From NCBI GenBank assembly GCA_029227635.1, contig JAQYAH010000037.1:1-34710 (forward strand): a stretch of 34,710 bases of DNA, written 5' to 3'. Shown piece after piece: positions 8,946 to 19,884 of the stretch. Below the pieces are notes generated by a model. It had not been told where the DNA came from. It ran no database searches and saw only the letters and a program-made list of their open reading frames with translations. Within the stretch, counting starts at the first letter, position 1, and each line of letters opens with the position of its first letter. The stretch is from Clostridiales bacterium. GTDB lineage: Bacteria > Bacillota > Clostridia > Lachnospirales > Lachnospiraceae. Both the position numbers and the translations under genes were made by a program.

Positions 8946-9072
8946 TATCACATGTTAAGTAACGGTATAATGATTGGATCAGGAATAGTTTTCTGTTATT
9001 CTTATTCAAAGACAAATTATTAATTTCCTTACATAATAAGACTTACAAAGGTTGAAGAAAGGAGTAATTATT

Positions 9073-9993
9073 ATGTCAGAAAAACGCTTTACCAAAGAAG
9101 AGATCCAGAGAGCTGCCAAGAATATTCGTAAAAGAATTCTTGGAATTGCTATCGAGAGCGGCGGATGTTACCTCGCTCAGGCATGTGGCTCTGCTGAGAT
9201 CGTAAGTTCTCTTTATATGAACATTCTCAACCTCGCACCCAGCGCAGGTAATCCCGATGCTCAGCTTTTCCCCGGAGTACCCTCCCCCTCCAATATGGAC
9301 TATCCCAAAGGATCACTCTATAACGGTTACACAGGAAACTCCGATGACGGATACGACAGACTTTTCATCTCCTGCTGTCACTATGCTTCTGTAATCTATT
9401 GTGCACTTGTTGAATCAGGACGTATGTCTGAGCGTGCTCTTGAGAAGTTCAACGTAGACGGTTGGAACATGGAGATGATCGGCGCTGAGCACTCACCCGG
9501 ATTTGAGAACACTGCCGGATCTCTTGGCCAGACAGTATCAATTGCTGCAGGTACAGCTCATGCATATAAGATGAAGGGAAGAAAGGGCCGTATCTGGTGC
9601 ATGCTTTCCGACGGTGAGCTTCAGGAAGGTCAGGACTGGGAGTGCTTCCAGATGGCAGCTCATTATCACCTGGACAACTTCTATGTTATTGCAGACATCA
9701 ACGGTCAGCAGCTTGAAGGCTGGACAAAGGATAATATGACAATTGAACCTCTTGAAGACAGATTCCATTCATTTGGATGGGAAGTAGTAAGAATTAATGG
9801 TCATGACCTTGATGCTCTTGAAGCTGCTCCCAACACCCCTCACGAGGGCAAGCCTCTCATGATCCTTTGCATGACTAACCCCGCTCAGGGCGTACCTGCA
9901 CTTGAGCCTATGATGCCTAAGCACTTCATTAACTTTAAGACAATGACTCCTGAGCAGGCAGCTGAGCTTAAGAAGTTCTATGAAGAAATGTAA
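9073..9993 (+). CDS. Transketolase-like N-terminal (TPP-binding) subunit, divergent
   Basis: A 306-residue thiamine-pyrophosphate-binding half of a split transketolase. The TPP/Mg motif is SDGELQEGQ (179-187) with DINGQQ about 25 residues later. AGSLGQTVSIAAGTAHA is the usual family segment. Two features differ from ordinary split transketolases: the region after the first helix (about residues 54-95, rich in Pro, Gly and Asp) is several dozen residues longer, and the substrate-site word normally LSKGHA reads ISCCHY. The ATG at 9073 has AAAGGAG 8 bases upstream; an in-frame ATG at 9052 lies before it. It forms an operon with the C subunit 18 bases downstream. A non-standard ketose phosphate donor is plausible; the AptA/AptB transketolase-like pair of D-apiose use is one precedent I recall. 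Confidence 0.9.
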   Translation: MSEKRFTKEEIQRAAKNIRKRILGIAIESGGCYLAQACGSAEIVSSLYMNILNLAPSAGNPDAQLFPGVPSPSNMDYPKGSLYNGYTGNSDDGYDRLFISCCHYASVIYCALVESGRMSERALEKFNVDGWNMEMIGAEHSPGFENTAGSLGQTVSIAAGTAHAYKMKGRKGRIWCMLSDGELQEGQDWECFQMAAHYHLDNFYVIADINGQQLEGWTKDNMTIEPLEDRFHSFGWEVVRINGHDLDALEAAPNTPHEGKPLMILCMTNPAQGVPALEPMMPKHFINFKTMTPEQAAELKKFYEEM

Positions 9994-10011
9994 GAAAGGG
10001 AGGAACAAGCG

Positions 10012-11001
10012 ATGAAATTAGAGACTAACACACATTCAAAAAATATTCTCCGTCTTGCTGAAGAGCATCCCGAACTCGTAGTACTTTCAGCTGACCTTGG
10101 AAGCTCATGCGAAGTTAAGGAATTCAGCCAGAAGTATCCTGACAGATATATCACTACAGGTATTGCAGAGCAGAACATGTGCTCATGGGCTGCAGGTCTT
10201 GCAAGAGAAGGTTTCAGACCTTTCCTTCACACATTCTCAGTATTCCTTTACCGCAGAATTCTTGACCAGCTCGAGATGAGCGTTGCATACCCCAACCTTC
10301 CTGTTGTATTCTGTGGCTTCGTACCCGGTATCACAACTCCCGGCGGTGTAACACACCAGTCCACAAACGATGTTGGTGTTTTAAGAACAGTTCCCAACCT
10401 TGCTATCTTTGATGTAGGTGATGCTACAGATATCGAAGGTGTTCTTGATATGGCTTACAACTACAACGGACCCGCTTACATTCGTCAGCTCCGCAAGTCT
10501 GTTCCCAGACTTTTCCCCGCTAACGAGCCTATTCAGTTCAACCACGCAAGAGTTATTTCAGAAGGTACAGATGTTACTATTCTTTCCTCTTCAATCTGTA
10601 CTGAGGAAGCAATGCGTGCAACTGCTGCTCTCAAGAACAAGGGACTTTCAATTCAGCACTTACACGTTTCTACTCTCAAGCCCTTCACCGATCCTCAGGT
10701 CGTTGAAGCTTGCCAGAAGGCAAAGTATGGTGTAATCACCATTGAGAACGGAACAGTTATCGGTGGTCTCGGATCTGCTACTGCTGATCTCATGGCTGAA
10801 CACGGCATTGGCAAGAGACTTGTTAAAGTTGGTCTTCAGGATACTTATTCCCATGGCGCATCAAAGATGTTCCTTCTCAACCATTACAAGATGGATGCAG
10901 AAGCACTCATCAATGCAGTTGAGGATCTCATGGGCAAAGATCTTGGCATTAAAGCTTCTGACCTTGAAGAAATCCGTTTCGAGGATTACTACGAGGTATA
11001 G
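10012..11001 (+). CDS. Transketolase-like C-terminal subunit
   Basis: A 329-residue partner carrying the pyrimidine-binding and C-terminal transketolase domains. The catalytic Glu that activates the thiamine ring is in TTGIAEQNM (Glu53). The loop GFVPGITTPGGVTHQSTNDV and the strand VPNLAIFDVGDATD are typical of the family. The C-terminal domain begins near VTILSSSICTEEAM. GGGAGG lies 7 bases before the ATG. It would form a heterotetramer with the N subunit, moving two-carbon units between sugar phosphates. A hairpin with no T run follows at 11028-11061. Confidence 0.93.
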   Translation: MKLETNTHSKNILRLAEEHPELVVLSADLGSSCEVKEFSQKYPDRYITTGIAEQNMCSWAAGLAREGFRPFLHTFSVFLYRRILDQLEMSVAYPNLPVVFCGFVPGITTPGGVTHQSTNDVGVLRTVPNLAIFDVGDATDIEGVLDMAYNYNGPAYIRQLRKSVPRLFPANEPIQFNHARVISEGTDVTILSSSICTEEAMRATAALKNKGLSIQHLHVSTLKPFTDPQVVEACQKAKYGVITIENGTVIGGLGSATADLMAEHGIGKRLVKVGLQDTYSHGASKMFLLNHYKMDAEALINAVEDLMGKDLGIKASDLEEIRFEDYYEV

Positions 11002-11027
11002 AATTCATAAATTACCCCCTATTATCA

Positions 11028-11061
11028 GATTGAGCACTGTCTTACCCTGCAGTGCTCAATC
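11028..11061 (+). promoter_or_regulatory. Intercistronic hairpin before the aldolase gene
   Basis: Perfect 12-base-pair stem, GATTGAGCACTG (11028-11039) with 11050-11061, and a 10-base loop. No T run follows, so it is more likely an mRNA processing or stability element than a full terminator. The aldolase ribosome site starts 12 bases later. Confidence 0.65.
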
Positions 11062-11087
11062 ACGTTGTTTACAAAGGAGTATTAATT

Positions 11088-11780
11088 ATGTTTGAAAAAG
11101 AAAAACTTGAAGTCATCAAAACAGGTATGAAACTTGACCGCTATGGTCTTATTGCATTAGCAGGCGGAAATGTCAGCCTTCGTATGCCTACCGGAGAGAT
11201 CCTTGTAACACCTTCAGGTATGATCTATGAGGAAATGGTAGCAGATGATGTTGTAGTTATGGATATCGACGGAAATATCATTGAAGGTGAGAGAAAGCCC
11301 TCTTCAGACACAGTAGGAATTCTCTACATCCTTAAGCACCGTCCTGATCTCAACGCAGTTATACACACACATCAGCCTTATGCAACTGCAATCAGCCTTA
11401 TTCAGGATGAGTTCCGTGCTGACCTTACAACTCTCGGCAATGCTTGCCGCGGTAACATTAAGTGCACCCCTTACTCTTCTCCCGGAAGTGTTGAGATGGG
11501 TATGGACACAGTAGAATACCTTGGCGATCAGCTTGCAGTAATCCTCTCCCACCACGGAGTTAACACAGTAGGCGACAGCCTCAAGCAGGCTCTCAACGCA
11601 GCTGTATATCTTGAGGAGTGTGCAAGAGCATATCTTGCAGCAAGAGCTTGTGGTGAGATCCGTCACCTTAACGACGAGCAGATTCAGCAGACAGTTGATA
11701 TATACAAGTTTGTAGGCCAGGGCAAGGGCGAGATCCCTGAAGAACTCTTAAAGAGAATTCCCAGCGACCCCCAAAAATAA
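11088..11780 (+). CDS. Class II aldolase/epimerase of the FucA-AraD family
   Basis: A 230-residue zinc enzyme of the fuculose-phosphate aldolase/ribulose-phosphate epimerase family. Marks are the phosphate loop GGNVSLRMPTGEILVTPSGM (26-45), PSSDT (Asp74, where E. coli FucA has Glu73 and AraD has Asp), HTH with zinc-binding His93 and His95, and SHHG with the third zinc His at about 155. The ATG at 11088 is preceded by AAAGGAG 8 bases away; an ATG at 11052 lies in the hairpin and is rejected. The third gene of the transketolase operon, it probably splits a ketose phosphate into dihydroxyacetone phosphate and an aldehyde, or epimerises a pentulose phosphate. Aldolase and epimerase cannot be separated from sequence alone. 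Confidence 0.9.
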   Translation: MFEKEKLEVIKTGMKLDRYGLIALAGGNVSLRMPTGEILVTPSGMIYEEMVADDVVVMDIDGNIIEGERKPSSDTVGILYILKHRPDLNAVIHTHQPYATAISLIQDEFRADLTTLGNACRGNIKCTPYSSPGSVEMGMDTVEYLGDQLAVILSHHGVNTVGDSLKQALNAAVYLEECARAYLAARACGEIRHLNDEQIQQTVDIYKFVGQGKGEIPEELLKRIPSDPQK

Positions 11781-12311: not shown

Positions 12312-12353
12312 AAAAAAAGATCTCCACTCACCTCATTGGCAAGTGGAGATCTT
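12312..12353 (-). terminator. Terminator of the hydrogenase operon
   Basis: AAGATCTCCACT (12317-12328) pairs with AGTGGAGATCTT (12342-12353). The seven A at 12312-12318 give a T run on the minus strand, just after the hydrogenase stop. Confidence 0.9.
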
Positions 12354-12363
12354 ATATTATATT

Positions 12364-14103
12364 TTAGTGGAAACCGTTCTTTGAATGCTCTGTGTGAAGA
12401 AGCTGATGAGCTTTGTGAGCATTAGGTTCTCCCATATATTCGCTGTAGAGCGCCAGGATATCAGGATTCTCATGAGAGTATCTGAGTTTATAATTCTTAT
12501 CCAGATAGTAGAGAGTATGAGATCTCTCGAAGGCACACTCTTCTCCTTCGTGGATAGGCTGACCGCCGCCGCCAACGCATCCGCCGGGACATGCCATTAC
12601 CTCAACGAAGTCGTAATGAACCTCTCCTCTTTCAATCTTATCAATAAGCTTTCTGGTGTTTCCAAGTCCGCTTACTACCGCTACTCTCACAGGAATCTCT
12701 CCCATATGGAATACCGCTTCTTGAACTCCGTCATTAGCATTAAATCCTGTACTTCTTACCGCCTTAAAAGCATCCACGGGAGGATTTTCTCCCATTACAA
12801 TATAATATGCTGAGCGAAGAGCTGCCTCCATAACTCCACCAGTTGCTCCGAAGATAACTCCGGCGCCGGTTCCGTCTCTCATAGGAAGGTCAAACTCAAT
12901 GTTGTTTAATGCAAACGGCTGAATGTGAGCAGAACGAATCATTCTTACCAGCTCTCTTGTAGTGAGTACACAGTCGATTTCTTTACCCGCATACTCTCCG
13001 TAGTAAAGATCCATCTCTGCTTCTGCCTTCTTTGCAACACAAGGCATGATTGAAAGGGTAAAGATCTTCTCGGGATTCACTCCAAGTTTCTCAGCGTAAT
13101 AAGTCTTCATAACAGCACCGAACATCTGCTGAGGTGACTTAGCTGAAGAAAGATATTTAACCAGATGAGGATACTGGCTCTTGATAAATCTTACCCAGCC
13201 GGGACAGCATGATGTGAACATAGGTCTGTCCTTGAATTCTCCGCTGGTAAAGCGCTGAACAAACTCTGTGCCTTCTTCCATAATTGTAAGATCAGCTGAG
13301 TATACTGTATCAAATACATAGTCGACGCCAAGTCTCTTTAAGGCATCTGCAATCTTGTTTACAGTAGCCTCCTCGGGAGAAAGACCAAGATCTTCGCCCC
13401 AGGCCGTTCTTACAGCAGGTGCAATCTGTGCAACAACGATGGTATCTTCATCATCAACTGCTCTCCAGAACTTACCTACATCATTCCTCTCGCTGAGGGC
13501 ACCAACAGGACAATGTGTAATACACTGACCACAAGCTGCACAATCTGCTTCTCTGATGCTCGCATGTCCAGCCACATTAACAGTAGTCTTAGCACCTGTT
13601 CCTTCAACATCCCAGATCCCAAGGCCCTGAACCTTCTCGCAAACATTTACACAGCGCATGCACTTGATACACTTTGTAGACTGTCTGATAAGAGGGAAGG
13701 TCTCATCCCACGCCTGATACTGAAGATCTCTCTCGTAGGGATTATCTACTATTCCAAGCTCAGCAGCCAGTGTCTGAAGGGCACAGTTCTGGTTTCTGAT
13801 ACAAGTAGTGCAAAGGCAATCATGCTGTGAGAGAATAAGCTGTACATTGGTTCTTCTCTGTTTACGAACCTTCTTGCTGTTCGTAAATACGTTCATGCCT
13901 TCTTCAACCACACAGGTACATGCAGTTGCAAGCTTGCCTCTGCCTTCAATCTCAACAAGACACACTCTGCAGGCAGAGATCTCATTGATACCTTTCAGGA
14001 AACAAAGGCGGGGAATATGGATACCGACACTATCGGCAGCATCCATAATAGTAGTATTCTCATTTACGGTAACGTTGATTCCGTCTATTGTAAGATTTAC
14101 CAT
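12364..14103 (-). CDS. [FeFe]-hydrogenase catalytic subunit (CpI-like)
   Basis: A 579-residue [FeFe]-hydrogenase reducing protons or oxidising H2. Iron-sulfur sites in order: 2Fe-2S (Cys34, 45, 48, 62), His-Cys 4Fe-4S (His94, Cys98, 101, 107), two ferredoxin 4Fe-4S sites (Cys145-155 and 188-198), then the H-cluster domain with TSCCPGW (Cys299, Cys300), MPCVAKKAE (Cys355) and ACPGGCVGGGG (Cys505, Cys509). All active-site Cys are present, and numbering is very close to Clostridium pasteurianum CpI. The start ATG overlaps the stop of the upstream flavoprotein gene by 7 bases, so the two are translationally coupled. With a GltD-like partner it resembles the glutamate-synthase-linked group A2 in hydrogenase classification; that grouping is recalled and needs phylogeny. 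Confidence 0.96.
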   Translation of the reverse strand: MVNLTIDGINVTVNENTTIMDAADSVGIHIPRLCFLKGINEISACRVCLVEIEGRGKLATACTCVVEEGMNVFTNSKKVRKQRRTNVQLILSQHDCLCTTCIRNQNCALQTLAAELGIVDNPYERDLQYQAWDETFPLIRQSTKCIKCMRCVNVCEKVQGLGIWDVEGTGAKTTVNVAGHASIREADCAACGQCITHCPVGALSERNDVGKFWRAVDDEDTIVVAQIAPAVRTAWGEDLGLSPEEATVNKIADALKRLGVDYVFDTVYSADLTIMEEGTEFVQRFTSGEFKDRPMFTSCCPGWVRFIKSQYPHLVKYLSSAKSPQQMFGAVMKTYYAEKLGVNPEKIFTLSIMPCVAKKAEAEMDLYYGEYAGKEIDCVLTTRELVRMIRSAHIQPFALNNIEFDLPMRDGTGAGVIFGATGGVMEAALRSAYYIVMGENPPVDAFKAVRSTGFNANDGVQEAVFHMGEIPVRVAVVSGLGNTRKLIDKIERGEVHYDFVEVMACPGGCVGGGGQPIHEGEECAFERSHTLYYLDKNYKLRYSHENPDILALYSEYMGEPNAHKAHQLLHTEHSKNGFH

Positions 14104-15929
14104 ACTCTCTCTCTGCCTCCTTTAAGGATTCCGAAGCCGAAGTGGTCACAGCGCAGGCATCTTCCTGCCTCCTGCTTTGACTCACATTCTGTCATACAAA
14201 GTTCAACACCGTCAAAGTCCTGAACTCTCTCGCAGGCTTCTCTCTCGTTGATATCGATTCTTGCGCACTGGATGTTGTCCTTGATACGCGCGGGAGGAAG
14301 ATCAATATCCACAGTAATAGTGTGACGATATCCGAGATACTCATCAATATTCGCCGCAACTACCTTCGCAGCCGCAATCGCTTTGATTACAGTTGCCGGT
14401 CCGCTCTGGCAGTCTCCGCCGGCGAATACATCAGGCATACCCTCAAAGCTTCCGTTAGGCATAGTCTCGATTCTGCCTCTGCAGGTAGGAATTCCAGCTT
14501 CCTCGAAATGCTTTGTCTCAATTGCCTGACCAATTGCTATGATAAGTACATCACAAGGGATATATTCTTCAGGATCTCCTGAAGGTTTAACTGACGCTCT
14601 GCGATCAACAATATTGCTGATCATCTGAGGTGTCACATAAAGACCTCTAATATGATTGTTATCATCAACATCAAGTCTTGCAGGAGCCTTGAGAGTCTTA
14701 AGCTCAACGCCCTCTGCTACAGCGCCTTCAATTTCTGCCGGAAGGGCTGTCATGTCTGCCTGACGACGTCTGTAAACGATACTTACTTTCTTTGCGCCAA
14801 GACGTTTTGCGGTTCTTACTGCATCCATGGATACATTACCACCGCCGATTACTGCAACTTCCTTGCCTTCAAGGTCAATGCCGTTGCCCTTGCCCACATC
14901 TCTGAGGAATGTAACTGCAGGGTAAACACCCTCAGCATCCTCACCCTCAAGACGGAGCTTCTTGTCTGTGCTGGCACCAATATTGATAAGTACCGCATCA
15001 TACTCGTCTCTAAGCTGCTGGAATGTGTAATCCACTCCAATCTTAACTCCGGTCTTTACTTCCACACCGGTCTTAAGGATCGCATTGATATCATCGTCCA
15101 GTCTATCCTTGGGAAGACGATAGTTGGGAATACCGTAACGAAGCATTCCGCCAAGCTTAGGAAGCATCTCAAATACAGTTGTCTGATGTCCCATGAGCTG
15201 GAGATAATAAGCTGTGCTGAGTCCGCCGGGACCACCGCCCACAATGGCAACTCTCTTACCTGTTGAAGGTGCACATGCGGGAGGATCAATCTCACCGGCA
15301 TAATCAGCGGCAACCCTCTTGAGGCCTCTGATATTTATGGAACCATCCACCATGTTACGGCGACATCTTGACTCACAGGGGTGCTCACAGATAAAACCAC
15401 AGGTAGTGGGGAATGGATTATCCTTTCTGATAAGTCTGATTGCATCAGCATATCTTCCCTCGCCAACAAGTGCAACATATCCGGGGATATCTACCTTAGC
15501 AGGGCACTCAGCAACACAGGGAACAGGATGCTTATAAGTACAGGTGCATCTTCCGTTCTTGATGTGCTCTACATAGTCATCGCGATAGCCCATAAGTCCA
15601 TTATATACAAGATAACCCGTCTCATATCCGATAGCGCAGTCCGCAGAATCCATAATGGTGAGAGCAGTCTGCTCAATTACATCCAGGGTCTCCAGTGTAG
15701 CTTTGCCGTTTAATACATCTGAGATCAGGCTTACCAGCTGCTTGATTCCGATACGGCAGGGTACACACTTTCCACAGGTCTGGGCGTGACACAGCTCCAG
15801 AAATGCTCTTGTCAGATCTACAGGGCAAAGTCCGGGAGGGCTGGATTCGATCTTACGCTGAAGATCCTTATACAATCCTTCCATGGCAATCCTTGCCTTT
15901 GTCGGTGTTTCAAATTCCAATCTACTCAT
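14097..15929 (-). CDS. NuoF-type Fe-S domain fused to GltD-like NAD(P)H:FAD oxidoreductase
   Basis: A 610-residue flavoprotein and probable electron partner of the hydrogenase. The N-terminal part (about 1-125) is the C-terminal 4Fe-4S domain of NuoF, with TCGKCVPCRIG (Cys52, 55, 58) and a fourth Cys at 98; the FMN/NADH domain of NuoF is absent. Then comes a GltD-like Fe-S domain (Cys138, 142, 177, 181, 185, 189), the FAD motif GGGPGGLSTAYYL (231-243) and the NAD(P) motif GGGNVSMDAVRTA (362-374), followed by DVFAGGD and a CLRC pair near the end. AGGAGGGG precedes the ATG. It is first in the operon, promoter at 15971-15999. It probably moves electrons between NAD(P)H and the hydrogenase; whether it bifurcates with ferredoxin is unknown. 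Confidence 0.9.
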   Translation of the reverse strand: MSRLEFETPTKARIAMEGLYKDLQRKIESSPPGLCPVDLTRAFLELCHAQTCGKCVPCRIGIKQLVSLISDVLNGKATLETLDVIEQTALTIMDSADCAIGYETGYLVYNGLMGYRDDYVEHIKNGRCTCTYKHPVPCVAECPAKVDIPGYVALVGEGRYADAIRLIRKDNPFPTTCGFICEHPCESRCRRNMVDGSINIRGLKRVAADYAGEIDPPACAPSTGKRVAIVGGGPGGLSTAYYLQLMGHQTTVFEMLPKLGGMLRYGIPNYRLPKDRLDDDINAILKTGVEVKTGVKIGVDYTFQQLRDEYDAVLINIGASTDKKLRLEGEDAEGVYPAVTFLRDVGKGNGIDLEGKEVAVIGGGNVSMDAVRTAKRLGAKKVSIVYRRRQADMTALPAEIEGAVAEGVELKTLKAPARLDVDDNNHIRGLYVTPQMISNIVDRRASVKPSGDPEEYIPCDVLIIAIGQAIETKHFEEAGIPTCRGRIETMPNGSFEGMPDVFAGGDCQSGPATVIKAIAAAKVVAANIDEYLGYRHTITVDIDLPPARIKDNIQCARIDINEREACERVQDFDGVELCMTECESKQEAGRCLRCDHFGFGILKGGRERVW

Positions 15930-16040: not shown

Positions 16041-16064
16041 AAAAAAGATCCCCGAGGGATCTTT
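16041..16064 (-). terminator. Terminator of the hydEGF operon
   Basis: AAAGATCCC (16044-16052) pairs with GGGATCTTT (16056-16064) around three bases; the A run at 16041-16046 is a T run on the minus strand. An alternative pairing with CCGGGGATC at 16074-16082 is possible. It lies about 120 bases beyond the hydF stop; the GC-rich segment between (16065-16185) holds no recognisable gene. Confidence 0.8.
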
Positions 16065-16185
16065 TGCAAATCTCCGGGGATCGTAGTTGTATAAGCGGCG
16101 GGTAGGAGTCCGGGAAGAGCCCTGCCTTTCTTGACCGCACACAATCTCAGAACGTGACCAACGGGCACTTCTGATGTTTTTGTAT

Positions 16186-17382
16186 CTAAAATTCTTTTTT
16201 AAGTACCTCAAGGCTCCTTTCCAGGATGTTGTTCATGTAGGCGATGAGGATACCGTAATTGATAAAGGGCACTCCCTGATGTATTGCGCAGTTCTTTCTA
16301 AACTGCATCTCCCTCTCGTTTATCATGCAGCCGCCGCAGTGAATCACCGCCTTGTACCGACTAAGGTCTTCCGGAAACTCCCTACCGGAAGAAAAGTCAA
16401 GTTCCGGGGTAAACCCGAGGTGTTTATTAAGCCATGCGGGTATCTTGACAGAACCGATATCGCCACACTGCCGGTGATGGGTACAGGCTTCCGATATCAG
16501 AATCCTGTCTCCAGGTTTCAGGCTGTCGATTGCTTTGATACTTTCCACAGCCGTCTCCAGAAAGCCATTGTAGCGAGCCATAAGCACTGAAAACGAGGTT
16601 AGGTGAATATCTGCAGGGACCATTCTCGACACCTCTCCAAAAGCCTGAGAATCGGTTATAACAAGCTTTGGTTTTTTGCCTATAGTGTCGAGGGCAAATC
16701 TTAGTTCAGTGTCTTTTACCGAAAGCACTAAAGCTCCTGCTTCCAGAAGATCTCTGATGGCCAGCTGCTGAGGAAGGATTATCCTTCCCTTGGGGGCTGC
16801 CTCATCGATGGGGATCACCAGAATTACCAGGTCTCCCGTCTCCACCAGATCTCCGGCAAATGCTTTGTCCCGGTTTCCTTCTCCAATCACCTGCCCCATA
16901 AGCTCTTTAAGTTCACCGATCCCTGTCTTTCTCAGGGCACTAACCGAGATTCGGGGAACGTTAATGTCTGAAGCATCCGGTTCAATATGAAGATCTGACT
17001 TATTAAAAGCCACGATACAAGGGATCTTTCTTTTTTCAAAAACCTCTAAAAGCTCTCTGTCTCCTTCCAGCAGTCCCACCTCTGAATCCACCACGAGAAC
17101 CGCAGCATCAATGCGGTTTAAGACCTCCCGGGTCTTTTTGATCCGAAGTTCCCCGAGAGCCCCCTCATCGTCAAATCCCGGGGTATCGATGATCACAACC
17201 GGGCCGATAGGCAAAAGCTCCATGGTCTTCCCCCCCGGATCCGTGGTGGTTCCGGGAGTATCCGAAACCACACTCAGTTCCTGAGATGTCACTGCGTTCA
17301 CAAGGCTTGACTTGCCAGAGTTTCTTTTTCCGAAAAAACCAATGTGGGTTCTGTTTGCCAAAGGTGTGCTGTTAAGGCTCAT
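16186..17382 (-). CDS. hydF: [FeFe]-hydrogenase maturation GTPase
   Basis: A 398-residue scaffold protein that carries the 2Fe subcluster precursor and hands it to apo-hydrogenase. The N-terminal GTPase shows GKRNSGKSSLV (18-28), DTPGTTTDPGG (41-51), DTPG (66-69) and NKSD (127-130). The C-terminal cluster motif is CxH (Cys300, His302) and HCxxC (His348, Cys349, Cys352), the standard HydF ligand set. It follows hydG with a one-base overlap (TAATG), so the two are coupled. Length and motifs are complete. Confidence 0.97.
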   Translation of the reverse strand: MSLNSTPLANRTHIGFFGKRNSGKSSLVNAVTSQELSVVSDTPGTTTDPGGKTMELLPIGPVVIIDTPGFDDEGALGELRIKKTREVLNRIDAAVLVVDSEVGLLEGDRELLEVFEKRKIPCIVAFNKSDLHIEPDASDINVPRISVSALRKTGIGELKELMGQVIGEGNRDKAFAGDLVETGDLVILVIPIDEAAPKGRIILPQQLAIRDLLEAGALVLSVKDTELRFALDTIGKKPKLVITDSQAFGEVSRMVPADIHLTSFSVLMARYNGFLETAVESIKAIDSLKPGDRILISEACTHHRQCGDIGSVKIPAWLNKHLGFTPELDFSSGREFPEDLSRYKAVIHCGGCMINEREMQFRKNCAIHQGVPFINYGILIAYMNNILERSLEVLKKEF

Positions 17383-18800
17383 TAGAATCTGAAATCTCTC
17401 TTTCCTTCGTGAATGTTTGCCAGGTATTCTTCGACTTTTTCTCTTACCTTGGGGTTAGTTATAACATCAAGCTCCTTCTCGATAAGGGTGTCTCCCACTC
17501 TCTTCGTATCATCTGAAGCATAATCCTCCAGGTATTCCTTGAGAGTCATAAGGGCGTTGGGATGACAGCAATTTACGATCTGACCGCTCTTTAAGAGGGA
17601 CATGAACCTGTCGCCGGTTCGGCCTTCCCTGTAGCAGGCAGTACAGAAGGAAGGAACGTAGTCCATCTTCATGAGCCAGTTTACCACCTCATCCAGTGTT
17701 CGGTTATCGCTGACATCGAACTGAGCCGAACTCTCCTCCTCAGGCTCAGCCTCCACGTAGCCGCCTACACTTGTGCGGGAGCCGCCGCTGATCTGGGATA
17801 CACCCAGGTGGAGAACTCTCTCTCGGCTCTCTTTTGTCTCTCTTGTGGAGATGATCATGCCGGTGTAGGGAACGGCAATTCGGATGCAGGCTACGATTTT
17901 TGCAAAAGTATCATCGGAGATTCCGTTGTCAAAAACATCCGGATCTATGTCATCGGCTCTTCTCACTCTGGGAACGCTGATGGTGTGAGGACCGCAGCCA
18001 TCATAAGCTTCTAAGTGCTCCGCATGCATGAGAATTCCTACGAAATCGTACTTGAAGTTGTTAAGACCGAAGAGTACTCCGATTCCCACATCATCGATAC
18101 CACCCTCCATGGCTCTATCCATGGCTTCGGTGTGATATGCATAGTCGTGCTTGGGTCCTGTGGGATGAAGCCTCTCGTAATTCTCTTTGTGGTAGGTCTC
18201 CTGGAAAAGGATGTAGGTTCCGATCCCCGCCTCTTTAAGCTTTCTGTAATTTTCAACAGTAGTTGCCGCAATGTTTACATTTACACGGCGGATGGCGCCG
18301 TTTTTGTGCTTGATGCTGTAGATAGTCTTGATGGACTCCAGAATATACTCAATGGGATTGTGTACAGGATCCTCACCGGCCTCAATGGCAAGGCGCTTGT
18401 GACCCATGTCCTGAAGAGCGATAACCTCGGCTTTGATCTCCTCCTGTGTGAGTTTTTTTCTGGGGATGTGTTTGTTCTTAAGATGATAAGGACAGTACTC
18501 ACAGCCGTTTACACAGTAATTTGAAAGATAAAGAGGAGCAAACATTACAATACGATTGCCGTAAAAATCTTTTTTGATCTGCTCTGCAAGTGTGTAGATC
18601 TCCTGGTTTTTGTCTTCCAACTCACAGCAAAGAAGAACTGCTGCCTCCCGATGAGTGAGACCTTTTCTCAGACGGGCTTTCTCAAGAATCCTGTCAATGA
18701 GCTCACCGTTGTTCTTGTTGGCCTCGGCATATTCGAGAGAACCAAGAATCTCTTCATGAGAGATAAACTCCTCTGCTTTAGGTGACATTACATTATACAT
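17382..18800 (-). CDS. hydG: Radical SAM tyrosine lyase for the hydrogenase H-cluster
   Basis: A 472-residue ThiH-like radical SAM enzyme that cleaves tyrosine to make the CO and CN ligands of the H-cluster. The SAM cluster motif is CVNGCEYC (Cys96, 100, 103). The C-terminal auxiliary-cluster motif is CTAC-x22-C (Cys386, 389, 412), which separates HydG from ThiH. GGAGG lies 7 bases before the ATG. It stands between hydE (17 bases upstream) and hydF. Confidence 0.97.
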   Translation of the reverse strand: MYNVMSPKAEEFISHEEILGSLEYAEANKNNGELIDRILEKARLRKGLTHREAAVLLCCELEDKNQEIYTLAEQIKKDFYGNRIVMFAPLYLSNYCVNGCEYCPYHLKNKHIPRKKLTQEEIKAEVIALQDMGHKRLAIEAGEDPVHNPIEYILESIKTIYSIKHKNGAIRRVNVNIAATTVENYRKLKEAGIGTYILFQETYHKENYERLHPTGPKHDYAYHTEAMDRAMEGGIDDVGIGVLFGLNNFKYDFVGILMHAEHLEAYDGCGPHTISVPRVRRADDIDPDVFDNGISDDTFAKIVACIRIAVPYTGMIISTRETKESRERVLHLGVSQISGGSRTSVGGYVEAEPEEESSAQFDVSDNRTLDEVVNWLMKMDYVPSFCTACYREGRTGDRFMSLLKSGQIVNCCHPNALMTLKEYLEDYASDDTKRVGDTLIEKELDVITNPKVREKVEEYLANIHEGKRDFRF

Positions 18801-18817
18801 TTGATTTCCTCCATATT

Positions 18818-19876
18818 TTAAGCTAGATCGGGATGGTCCCCTCTTGATCGGGAGAGCTCGTATCCGATAGATTTCATTCGGTTTTCAAGACACTGCCGGC
18901 ATTCCGCAGCCTCATCGCCGGTACAGATCTTGTTGTCATAAAGTTCGTATTTTTTGCGTACCTTTACCGGAGAGAGGTTAGGCATAACCACATTGGCGCC
19001 GGCAAGAATCCCCATTTCTCGTCCTCTCGGAGATATAGTTCCGAGAGCTGTGGTTGCCGGCAGAAGTGCTTTTGGCAGCATCAATCTCAGAAGGCCTATG
19101 CAAAAGAGAGTCAACGCCACAGTTCCCCCGGTTTCTTTTGCAAAAGGAGTGTCGTGATGAGGAACAAAAGGTCCGATTCCCACCATATGGGGGGACAGTT
19201 CCTTTAGGAAAAGGAAGTCCGAGGCCAGGGTGTCGCTTGTCTGGTAAGGTGATCCTACCATGAAGCCACTCCCCACCTGGTATCCGATATCTTTAAGATC
19301 AAAAAGACATCTTCTCCGATTCTCAAACGACATGTTCCCGGGGTGCAGCCTCGCATAGTGAGCTTTGTCTCCGGTCTCATGCCTCAGAAGATACCTGTCC
19401 GCTCCGGCCTCATAGTAAGCCTCATAGCTCTTTCTTGGCTTTTCACCAATGGAAAGGGTCAGCGCACAATCAGGATATAGATCTTTAATGCTCCTTACGA
19501 TGTCCACCAGTATCTCATCGGTAAAGGCCGGATCTTCTCCGCCCTGGAGCACGAAGGTGCGAAATCCCAGCTCATAACCTTCCTCGCAGCAGGAGAGGAT
19601 ATCCTCTTTCGTGAGACGATATCTGGAGGCATTTCTGTTGTCCCTTCGTATACCGCAGTAGAGACAATTGTTTTTGCAATAGTTTGTAAATTCTATGAGC
19701 CCCCTGGTGTATACCTTGTTGCCAAACACCTCTTTGGATATCCTTACCGCCTTCTCAAAAAGATATTCCGAAAGGCCCGGCTCCTCAAAGTGTTCAAATA
19801 GAAAGACCCACTCTTCTCTTTTGAGGCTTTTGTCTTTTTCCAGACGGTCAATTAGCTCAAAGCAACGACTTCTCAT
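18818..19876 (-). CDS. hydE: Radical SAM maturase of [FeFe]-hydrogenase
   Basis: A 352-residue BioB-like radical SAM protein needed to assemble the dithiolate-bridged 2Fe cluster. The SAM motif is NYCKNNCLYCGIRRDN with Cys67, 71 and 74; LQGGEDP follows at the expected distance. ATG at 19876 has AGGAG 5 bases upstream; an in-frame GTG at 19882 overlaps that site. It is second in the operon, 8 bases after the regulator gene. Confidence 0.96.
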   Translation of the reverse strand: MRSRCFELIDRLEKDKSLKREEWVFLFEHFEEPGLSEYLFEKAVRISKEVFGNKVYTRGLIEFTNYCKNNCLYCGIRRDNRNASRYRLTKEDILSCCEEGYELGFRTFVLQGGEDPAFTDEILVDIVRSIKDLYPDCALTLSIGEKPRKSYEAYYEAGADRYLLRHETGDKAHYARLHPGNMSFENRRRCLFDLKDIGYQVGSGFMVGSPYQTSDTLASDFLFLKELSPHMVGIGPFVPHHDTPFAKETGGTVALTLFCIGLLRLMLPKALLPATTALGTISPRGREMGILAGANVVMPNLSPVKVRKKYELYDNKICTGDEAAECRQCLENRMKSIGYELSRSRGDHPDLA

Positions 19877-19884
19877 GAACACTC

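Follow-up and report, generated by a model that had tools for sequence, protein, structure and literature searches.

Which electron carrier serves an [FeFe]-hydrogenase when the flavoprotein encoded beside it combines an Fe-S domain of the NuoF type with a GltD-type module? The question is raised by two overlapping genes in a 34,710-nucleotide stretch of DNA from a Clostridiales bacterium of the Lachnospiraceae (assembly GCA_029227635.1, contig JAQYAH010000037.1; hereafter, the window), both on the minus strand: hydA (12364..14103), which encodes the 579-aa catalytic subunit, as judged from its open reading frame (ORF) and domain and family-model matches, and a partner gene (14097..15929), the 610-aa product of which joins the N3 Fe-S domain of HydB/NuoF to a GltD module. 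On balance, we lean towards the view that the pair is an [FeFe]-hydrogenase of group A2, heterodimeric or of higher order, which acts reversibly as an NADP(H):H2 oxidoreductase without bifurcation and does not need glutamate synthase. Group A2 is already known; the NADP(H)-linked, non-bifurcating reaction is a prediction which, if true, tells where bacteria with A2 enzymes put or get the electrons of H2 and corrects the label ‘glutamate-synthase-linked’. In the HydDB classifier text, A2 is recognised from a neighbouring protein of the GltD type that lacks NuoF, and its role is called undetermined; rumen and human gut studies describe the group as unresolved or needing characterisation (PMC5037454; PMC6776011; PMC12578642); the name is also used otherwise by some, CpI being called group A2 in one text (PMC9431212). 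Our literature search returned no paper identifiable as describing a purified A2 enzyme. The proteins Cthe_3003/3004 are said to have once been proposed as NADPH-linked.

The partner combines an NADH_4Fe-4S (N3) domain with the ligands C52, C55, C58 and C98 (residues 38–122; 15564..15818), a Fer4_20 domain with two [4Fe-4S] sites that include K204 (residues 127–212; 15294..15551), an FAD/NAD(P) domain (Pyr_redox_2) with R271 and Y386-R387-R388-R389 (residues 226–521; 14367..15254) and a C-terminal segment with the CLxC pair C591 and C594 (residues 557–595; 14145..14261), all on the minus strand. The four N3 cysteines, C138, C142, C181, C185, C189, C591, C594 and K204 are invariant in an alignment of 44 distinct full-length partners, which took sequences shorter than 700 aa that start by residue 40 and reach residue 595, the window's own, some near-copies and three formate dehydrogenase-linked ones included. 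The initial annotation had described a protein that keeps the Fe-S domain of NuoF, lacks its FMN/NADH domain and contains a complete GltD-type module, and the domain scan agrees: no Pfam match to the Complex1_51K/FMN domain was obtained in the partner, whereas the same library reports one in a 1031-aa relative (L198, residues 181–352), and nuoF_fam is matched with 31.9 of 558.65 bits, over the last 89 positions of the model only. An undetected FMN domain was considered and rejected, given the Pfam result and the near-invariance of M1, S2 and R3 in a 33-row alignment, from which the start of the protein appears to be common to its relatives; the N3 remnant could give a partial NuoF match in CDD. 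The GltD/GltA-type affinity by which HydDB recognises A2 is apparent from PRK12771 (588.7 over 516) and the presence of Pyr_redox_2 and Fer4_20, and the partner remains under the GltD family cut-offs (gltD_gamma, 238 of 483; GOGAT_sm, 208 of 448; gltA, 302 of 472 bits). The last cysteine pair of the module, C591 and C594, is C-terminal as in StnC, the subunit of the Stn transhydrogenase that oxidises NADPH without bifurcation, and not N-terminal as in NfnB, to which the C-terminal segment gives a weak direct sequence match (5.1 bits). An AlphaFold model of the partner (pLDDT 82.3, pTM 0.76) has its top structural matches in NfnABC (9bov_A, Z 44.8) and StnC (8oh5_C, Z 43.5), over 442–443 residues, the search having barely covered the first 130. 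Near N3, residues C35, H122 and C128 are also present in 71–72 of 73 HydB-type rows and may form a Zn site, by analogy with the HydB-like StnB, in which a Zn ion is described as stabilising the linker to the C-terminal domain. C177, a residue with no assigned role as a ligand, is invariant as well; NfnB-like rows also have Cys there, and a different kind of GltD-sized row has Thr.

HydA has a complete N-terminal Fe-S chain and two further domains, as seen from its family matches (Fer2_4, NADH-G_4Fe-4S_3, a 4Fe-4S dicluster, Fe_hyd_lg_C at 1e-90 and Fe_hyd_SSU), again on the minus strand: a [2Fe-2S] domain (residues 1–76; 13876..14103), with C34, C45, C48 and C62 in 42/42 rows of its clade; a His/Cys [4Fe-4S] site (H94, C98, C101, C107) followed by two [4Fe-4S] sites (residues 83–202; 13498..13857); the H-cluster domain with the motifs TSCCPGW, MPC and ACPGGC (residues 222–513; 12565..13440); and a fused small-subunit domain (residues 526–574; 12382..12528). 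The candidate cluster ligands are invariant throughout the 42 clade rows, barring gaps at C505/C509 in 5–6 of them. The protein passes the [FeFe] group A subfamily model TIGR02512 (451.1 bits, cut-off 405.95). Assignment to group A1 (CpI-type) was rejected, NF040762 giving 530.5 of 900 bits and its positive example, L156, 1104.7. The nearest NCBIfam model is that of ‘group A6’, which HydA matches under the cut-off (736.1 of 765 bits), as do three of four other A2-type rows, the fourth (L078) lying over it with 779.4.

The start and stop codons of the two genes overlap by 7 bases (ATGGTAA, 14097..14103), such that the Trp codon and stop of the partner read as ATG GTA A of hydA, and an AGGAGG within the 3' end of the partner gene (14116..14121, minus) resembles a Shine-Dalgarno sequence for hydA. 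This overlap, from which the initial annotation had argued for a fixed complex, was found again in 41 of 46 stretches with a partner (GTGGTAA once, in L167), most of the 41 having a GGAGG-like stretch ~12 bases ahead of the hydA start; the set holds two second copies (L187 = L024, L197 = L013) and is counted without the short copies L005–L012, the distant matches L045–L048 and the later-added L237–L242. In the five deviating junctions, the genes are 114 bases apart (L189), the partner gene overlaps that of a molybdopterin protein by 1 base (L190) or no hydA was found (L013, L197, L193). Among the later additions, an H-domain match adjoins the partner in L237, L238, L239 and L241; L240 is cut short, and in L242 the N-terminal match is the only one. 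In a comparison of 28 loci, of which L024 and L187 are a single place, HydA was found in 28, the partner in 27 (by automatic ORF choice) and the next gene family in 5. Partner and HydA distances are correlated over 35 pairs (Spearman 0.80; the highest value among 1000 permutations was 0.38), shared organismal ancestry adding to this value. Furthermore, hairpins resembling terminators stand on both sides of the pair on the minus strand: one with a T-run 3' of hydA (12317..12353; 16 pairs; folded stretch -26.5 kcal/mol, z -8.4), of the intrinsic-terminator type, and one between hydF and the partner gene (16047..16082; -20 kcal/mol, z -3.9), which lies outside the list of the consensus terminator scan and was spotted in the sequence and then folded. 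Because of these hairpins, the two genes are probably a transcription unit of their own in the window; the hydA start region, when folded, showed no special structure (z +1.06). The conserved overlap, the correlated distances and the flanking hairpins together lend indirect support to the partner and HydA being a fixed unit.

The partner was matched over residues 1–610, at 55–79% identity, in 29 loci of named genome records (L016–L044), which include Lachnospiraceae records, Coprococcus comes, [Ruminococcus] faecis, Peptoniphilus indolicus, Anaerococcus, Pseudoramibacter and Catonella. A near-full-length short partner is present in 10 of 41 genomes, made up of relatives and the source genome, and at E <= 1e-150 in 6 of 299 genomes drawn evenly across the phylum; in one of the former 10 (G024) it stands solely beside a formate dehydrogenase-like protein.

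The annotated glutamate-synthase-linked (A2) type fared differently in its two halves. As regards A2, placement among A1 or A3 enzymes, which would have told against it, did not plainly occur: HydA lies in a well-supported clade that contains no A3 row and not the A1 row, the attachment point of the clade differing between two trees. In the 134-row tree, from which HydA ORFs shorter than 440 aa, same-core rows and as many as three duplicates of the row for the window had been dropped, the 41 HydA with a short partner and L082, the contig of which ends ahead of any readable partner, form one group (SH-aLRT 100); in the 50-row tree, a hand-picked subset for which the bootstrap had not settled, 15 A2 rows stand together (100/100). 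Neither tree has any A3 row, or the CpI-type A1 row L156, inside the clade. In the former, the clade lies outside all NuoF-linked (A3) rows, with support of 83 for those rows jointly, and in the latter it adjoins six A3 rows, including the hydABC of the source genome (L002/L107), at 92/86, not starred. The label A3 denotes a NuoF/FMN-type gene upstream of hydA, and the rows so labelled may, therefore, include NADH-dependent non-bifurcating types. The readable members of the clade carry the N3-GltD partner; L157, labelled A2-type by the neighbour rule, is a split HydA-GltD protein outside it. The first H-cluster motif is T/S-S-C-C-P in all 42 A2-type-labelled rows (L157 in, L082 out) and TSCSP in 39 of 64 NuoF-linked rows and in 7/7 rows with a longer partner (LONG, described below); an approximately unbiased (AU) test bearing on independent origins of the GltD link in the A2 and LONG types did not reject the HydA of the two held together (p 0.146). 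The NuoF/FMN partner and HydC, which mark the HydABC of group A3, are absent at the window pair, HydC having been sought among the genes that adjoin it. These observations support assignment of the pair to group A2, filed by the HydDB description and by its own clade rather than by HydDB reference sequences. The HydDB classifier text puts the GltD-type gene immediately downstream, whereas in the window the partner is upstream of hydA. Among 177 HydA ORFs (copies included), none has a downstream neighbour of the NuoF or GltD type in the flanks covered, A3 types included; such neighbours, where present, are upstream, so the ‘downstream’ of HydDB hardly refers to transcription order.

We propose that NADPH (or NADP+) would bind to the GltD module and exchange hydride with FAD, from which single electrons would run via the two [4Fe-4S] clusters of the module to the retained HydB-type N3 cluster and then along HydA's [2Fe-2S]/[4Fe-4S] chain to the H-cluster, the site at which H2 would be made or consumed; the direction in the cell would depend on H2 pressure and the NADPH/NADP+ ratio. 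This plain NADP(H) reaction is suggested by the invariant ligands along the path, a lysine at position 204 as in StnC, the nucleotide motif Tyr-Arg-Arg-Arg (YRRR) and the absence of the FMN domain and HydC. The motif is that of the short fusions, its three arginines being conserved in 44/44 partners, and is close to the YRRS/YRRG of NfnB-like rows and the YRRT of StnC-like rows, unlike that of the CLES/CLED-type group; arginines of the R387-R388-R389 type are those which we take to bind the 2'-phosphate of NADP. By alignment, K204 corresponds to K170 of StnC, and R271 to R201 of NfnB and R239 of StnC. According to the Stn structure paper, K170 is strictly conserved and seems to coordinate the FAD-adjacent cluster in one state, with C114 close in another; K170A/C severely impairs activity and K170R retains half of it; NfnB has Glu at this position; and the FAD of StnC is non-bifurcating although R239 is kept (PMC10482914). 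In our control, Glu occupies the K204 position in 11/11 GltD/NfnB-sized rows (461–583 aa) that carry no hydrogenase or other added domain, L222 of the source genome included, and Lys is found there in every short fusion readable at this site.

Several points weigh against this reading. Lys also occurs at the K204 position in LONG, HydA-GltD and CLES/CLED rows and in the YgfK-like L223, and L046 has His; since Lys is not special to StnC, K204 is a stronger argument against an NfnB-type module than for one of the StnC type. The position of StnC C114 is occupied by Ile (38) or Val (6) in the 44 partners, replacements of this kind being noted by the Stn structure paper in two homologues (PMC10482914). 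The arginine that favours bifurcation in NfnB, R201, has its counterpart R271 in 44/44 partners, although StnC keeps this arginine, too, without bifurcating. The model of the partner is of a single chain, hence devoid of inter-subunit geometry and cluster distances, and the predicted preference for NADP over NAD derives solely from motifs. The HydDB table, moreover, states in an entry marked putative that A2 enzymes may reduce NAD with electrons from H2 (PMC5037454). The same two-subunit enzyme would then be NAD(H)-specific, as are the related HydB/NuoF, which use NADH; we consider this unlikely, though worth keeping in view, given that the partner lacks the NADH/FMN domain and that R387-R388-R389 is present in 44/44 partners, as in NfnB- and StnC-type rows and unlike in the CLES/CLED group.

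The invariant R271 and the ferredoxin-type clusters kept in HydA would also suit an enzyme with an electron-splitting, NfnB-like role for the GltD-type FAD, such that reduced ferredoxin and NADPH jointly make H2. Bifurcation or confurcation of this kind strikes us as rather improbable, because K204 replaces the Glu of NfnB in 44/44 partners, no other gene family accompanies the pair in more than 5 of the 28 loci and StnC, which also has Lys and Arg at these positions, is described as non-bifurcating (PMC10482914). A particular form of it, a minimal two-subunit bifurcating hydrogenase in which the R271-bearing FAD would couple NADPH and ferredoxin to H2 with a Lys-ligated cluster and neither HydB-FMN nor HydC, we regard as distinctly improbable.

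The other half of the annotated type, a functional link to glutamate synthase, is not borne out. The HydDB group name would make the partner the small subunit of that enzyme, with the pair feeding H2 electrons to it, and GltB (PF01645) is indeed found at more than 400 bits in 7 of the 11 genomes carrying the pair, or in 11/11 if the Pfam cut-off of 20.4 bits is used, which several weak matches pass. However, the matches in the source genome, P. indolicus, Anaerococcus sp. and C. morbi are partial and below 30 bits, and we infer that such matches are other FMN-barrel proteins; where GltB is strong, its gene is on a different contig or separated from the pair by 60 kb or more, in 7/7 genomes, and the partner is under the GltD cut-offs given above. 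The source genome is 86.7% complete, so that its lack of GltB is weak on its own, but the four genomes without strong GltB together make the pair likely to be independent of it. Accordingly, coupling to glutamate synthase seems very unlikely, and ‘glutamate-synthase-linked’ looks like a misnomer.

The same partner is also found away from hydrogenases. In L190 (4528–9080), L193 (2983–7525) and L197 (= L013; 3035–7577), the short N3-GltD protein precedes a NuoG-FdhF-type protein with Molybdopterin domains, which matches the formate dehydrogenase alpha model (857, cut-off 666) in L190, the only one of the three loci compared with that model. In the GltD tree, the three formate dehydrogenase-linked partners cluster together (SH-aLRT 99) at a nested position within the A2 partners, which suggests a single swap from hydrogenase to formate dehydrogenase. 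Since it adjoins molybdopterin proteins in three places, the N3-GltD partner looks like a portable NADP(H) module, a general entry unit for NADP(H) electrons, and the L190, L193 and L197 pairs are possibly NADP-linked formate dehydrogenases; if one module does serve both hydrogenases and formate dehydrogenase-like proteins, it would be a clear instance of a module being exchanged. These three places might also be taken to mean that partner and HydA are co-transcribed without forming a complex, each having another partner, which is scarcely credible in view of the conserved overlap, the correlated distances and the nested position of the three, which looks like a derived swap. L242, in which a HydA-like N-terminus stands without an H-domain match, may be another locus with a formate dehydrogenase-like protein in place of hydA.

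Two other layouts bring HydA and the GltD module together. In LONG loci (L014/L198, L118, L124, L127, L131, L133, L137; Pfam domains checked for L198), a partner of 971–1031 aa directly upstream of hydA unites NuoF FMN-type, N3 and GltD parts in a single polypeptide; the HydA of these loci falls in or beside A3 rows, and the partner may bind both NADH and NADPH. In L157–L161, HydA and the GltD module are joined in a single chain of 954–1146 aa (split in L157; Pfam checked for L159), a third way of joining the two. The source genome itself also has a hydABC-type cluster with a NuoF-like partner (L107, C44) and a third [FeFe]-hydrogenase of 515 aa (L108, C75), presumably of group B to judge by eye.

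Upstream of the pair, on the same strand, are the maturation genes, the minus-strand order in the window being hydE, hydG, hydF, partner gene, hydA: the radical SAM maturases hydE (18818..19882; TIGR03956, 586 bits) and hydG (17382..18800; TIGR03955, 937 bits) and the H-cluster maturation GTPase gene hydF (16186..17382; TIGR03918, 531 bits). Co-transcription with hydEGF as a general trait was rejected: hydE, hydF and hydG queries match only the window's locus among L004–L048, where the flanks were 1.5 to 8 kb or less, and a hairpin intervenes. On the plus strand (9052–11780), a class II aldolase/epimerase gene comes after a transketolase that is split over two genes; with a DeoR-type regulator and a PTS component of the galactitol type nearby, this is likely a sugar-use cluster.

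Among known systems, the pair resembles HydDB group A2, as described in the classifier text, in having a group A H-domain beside a GltD-type protein without the NuoF FMN domain, and differs in the upstream position of the partner and in showing no sign of a required glutamate synthase link. The Hyd1ABC of S. wolfei and the HydAB of S. aciditrophicus (NCBIfam ‘group A6’) share with it the proposed non-bifurcating reaction and the closest NCBIfam model, but employ a NuoF-type flavin subunit and NADH. The HydABC of group A3 has a HydA of equal build, and the partner retains the HydB N3 domain together with the C/H/C set of HydB; by contrast, the window pair has no FMN/NADH domain, adjoining HydC or C-terminal ferredoxin domain, and its HydA is in a clade of its own. 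StnC of the Sporomusa ovata Stn and its NfnABC relatives have in common with the partner the Lys at the cluster-ligand position, the Arg at the R239 position and the C-terminal CLxC, the structural match to StnC extending over 443 residues (rmsd 2.1, 39% identity). However, StnC carries NuoG and FdhF-like domains and feeds the HydCB-like bifurcating module StnAB, whereas in the partner the module is fused to an N3 domain, paired with a hydrogenase and furnished with Ile or Val at the C114 position.

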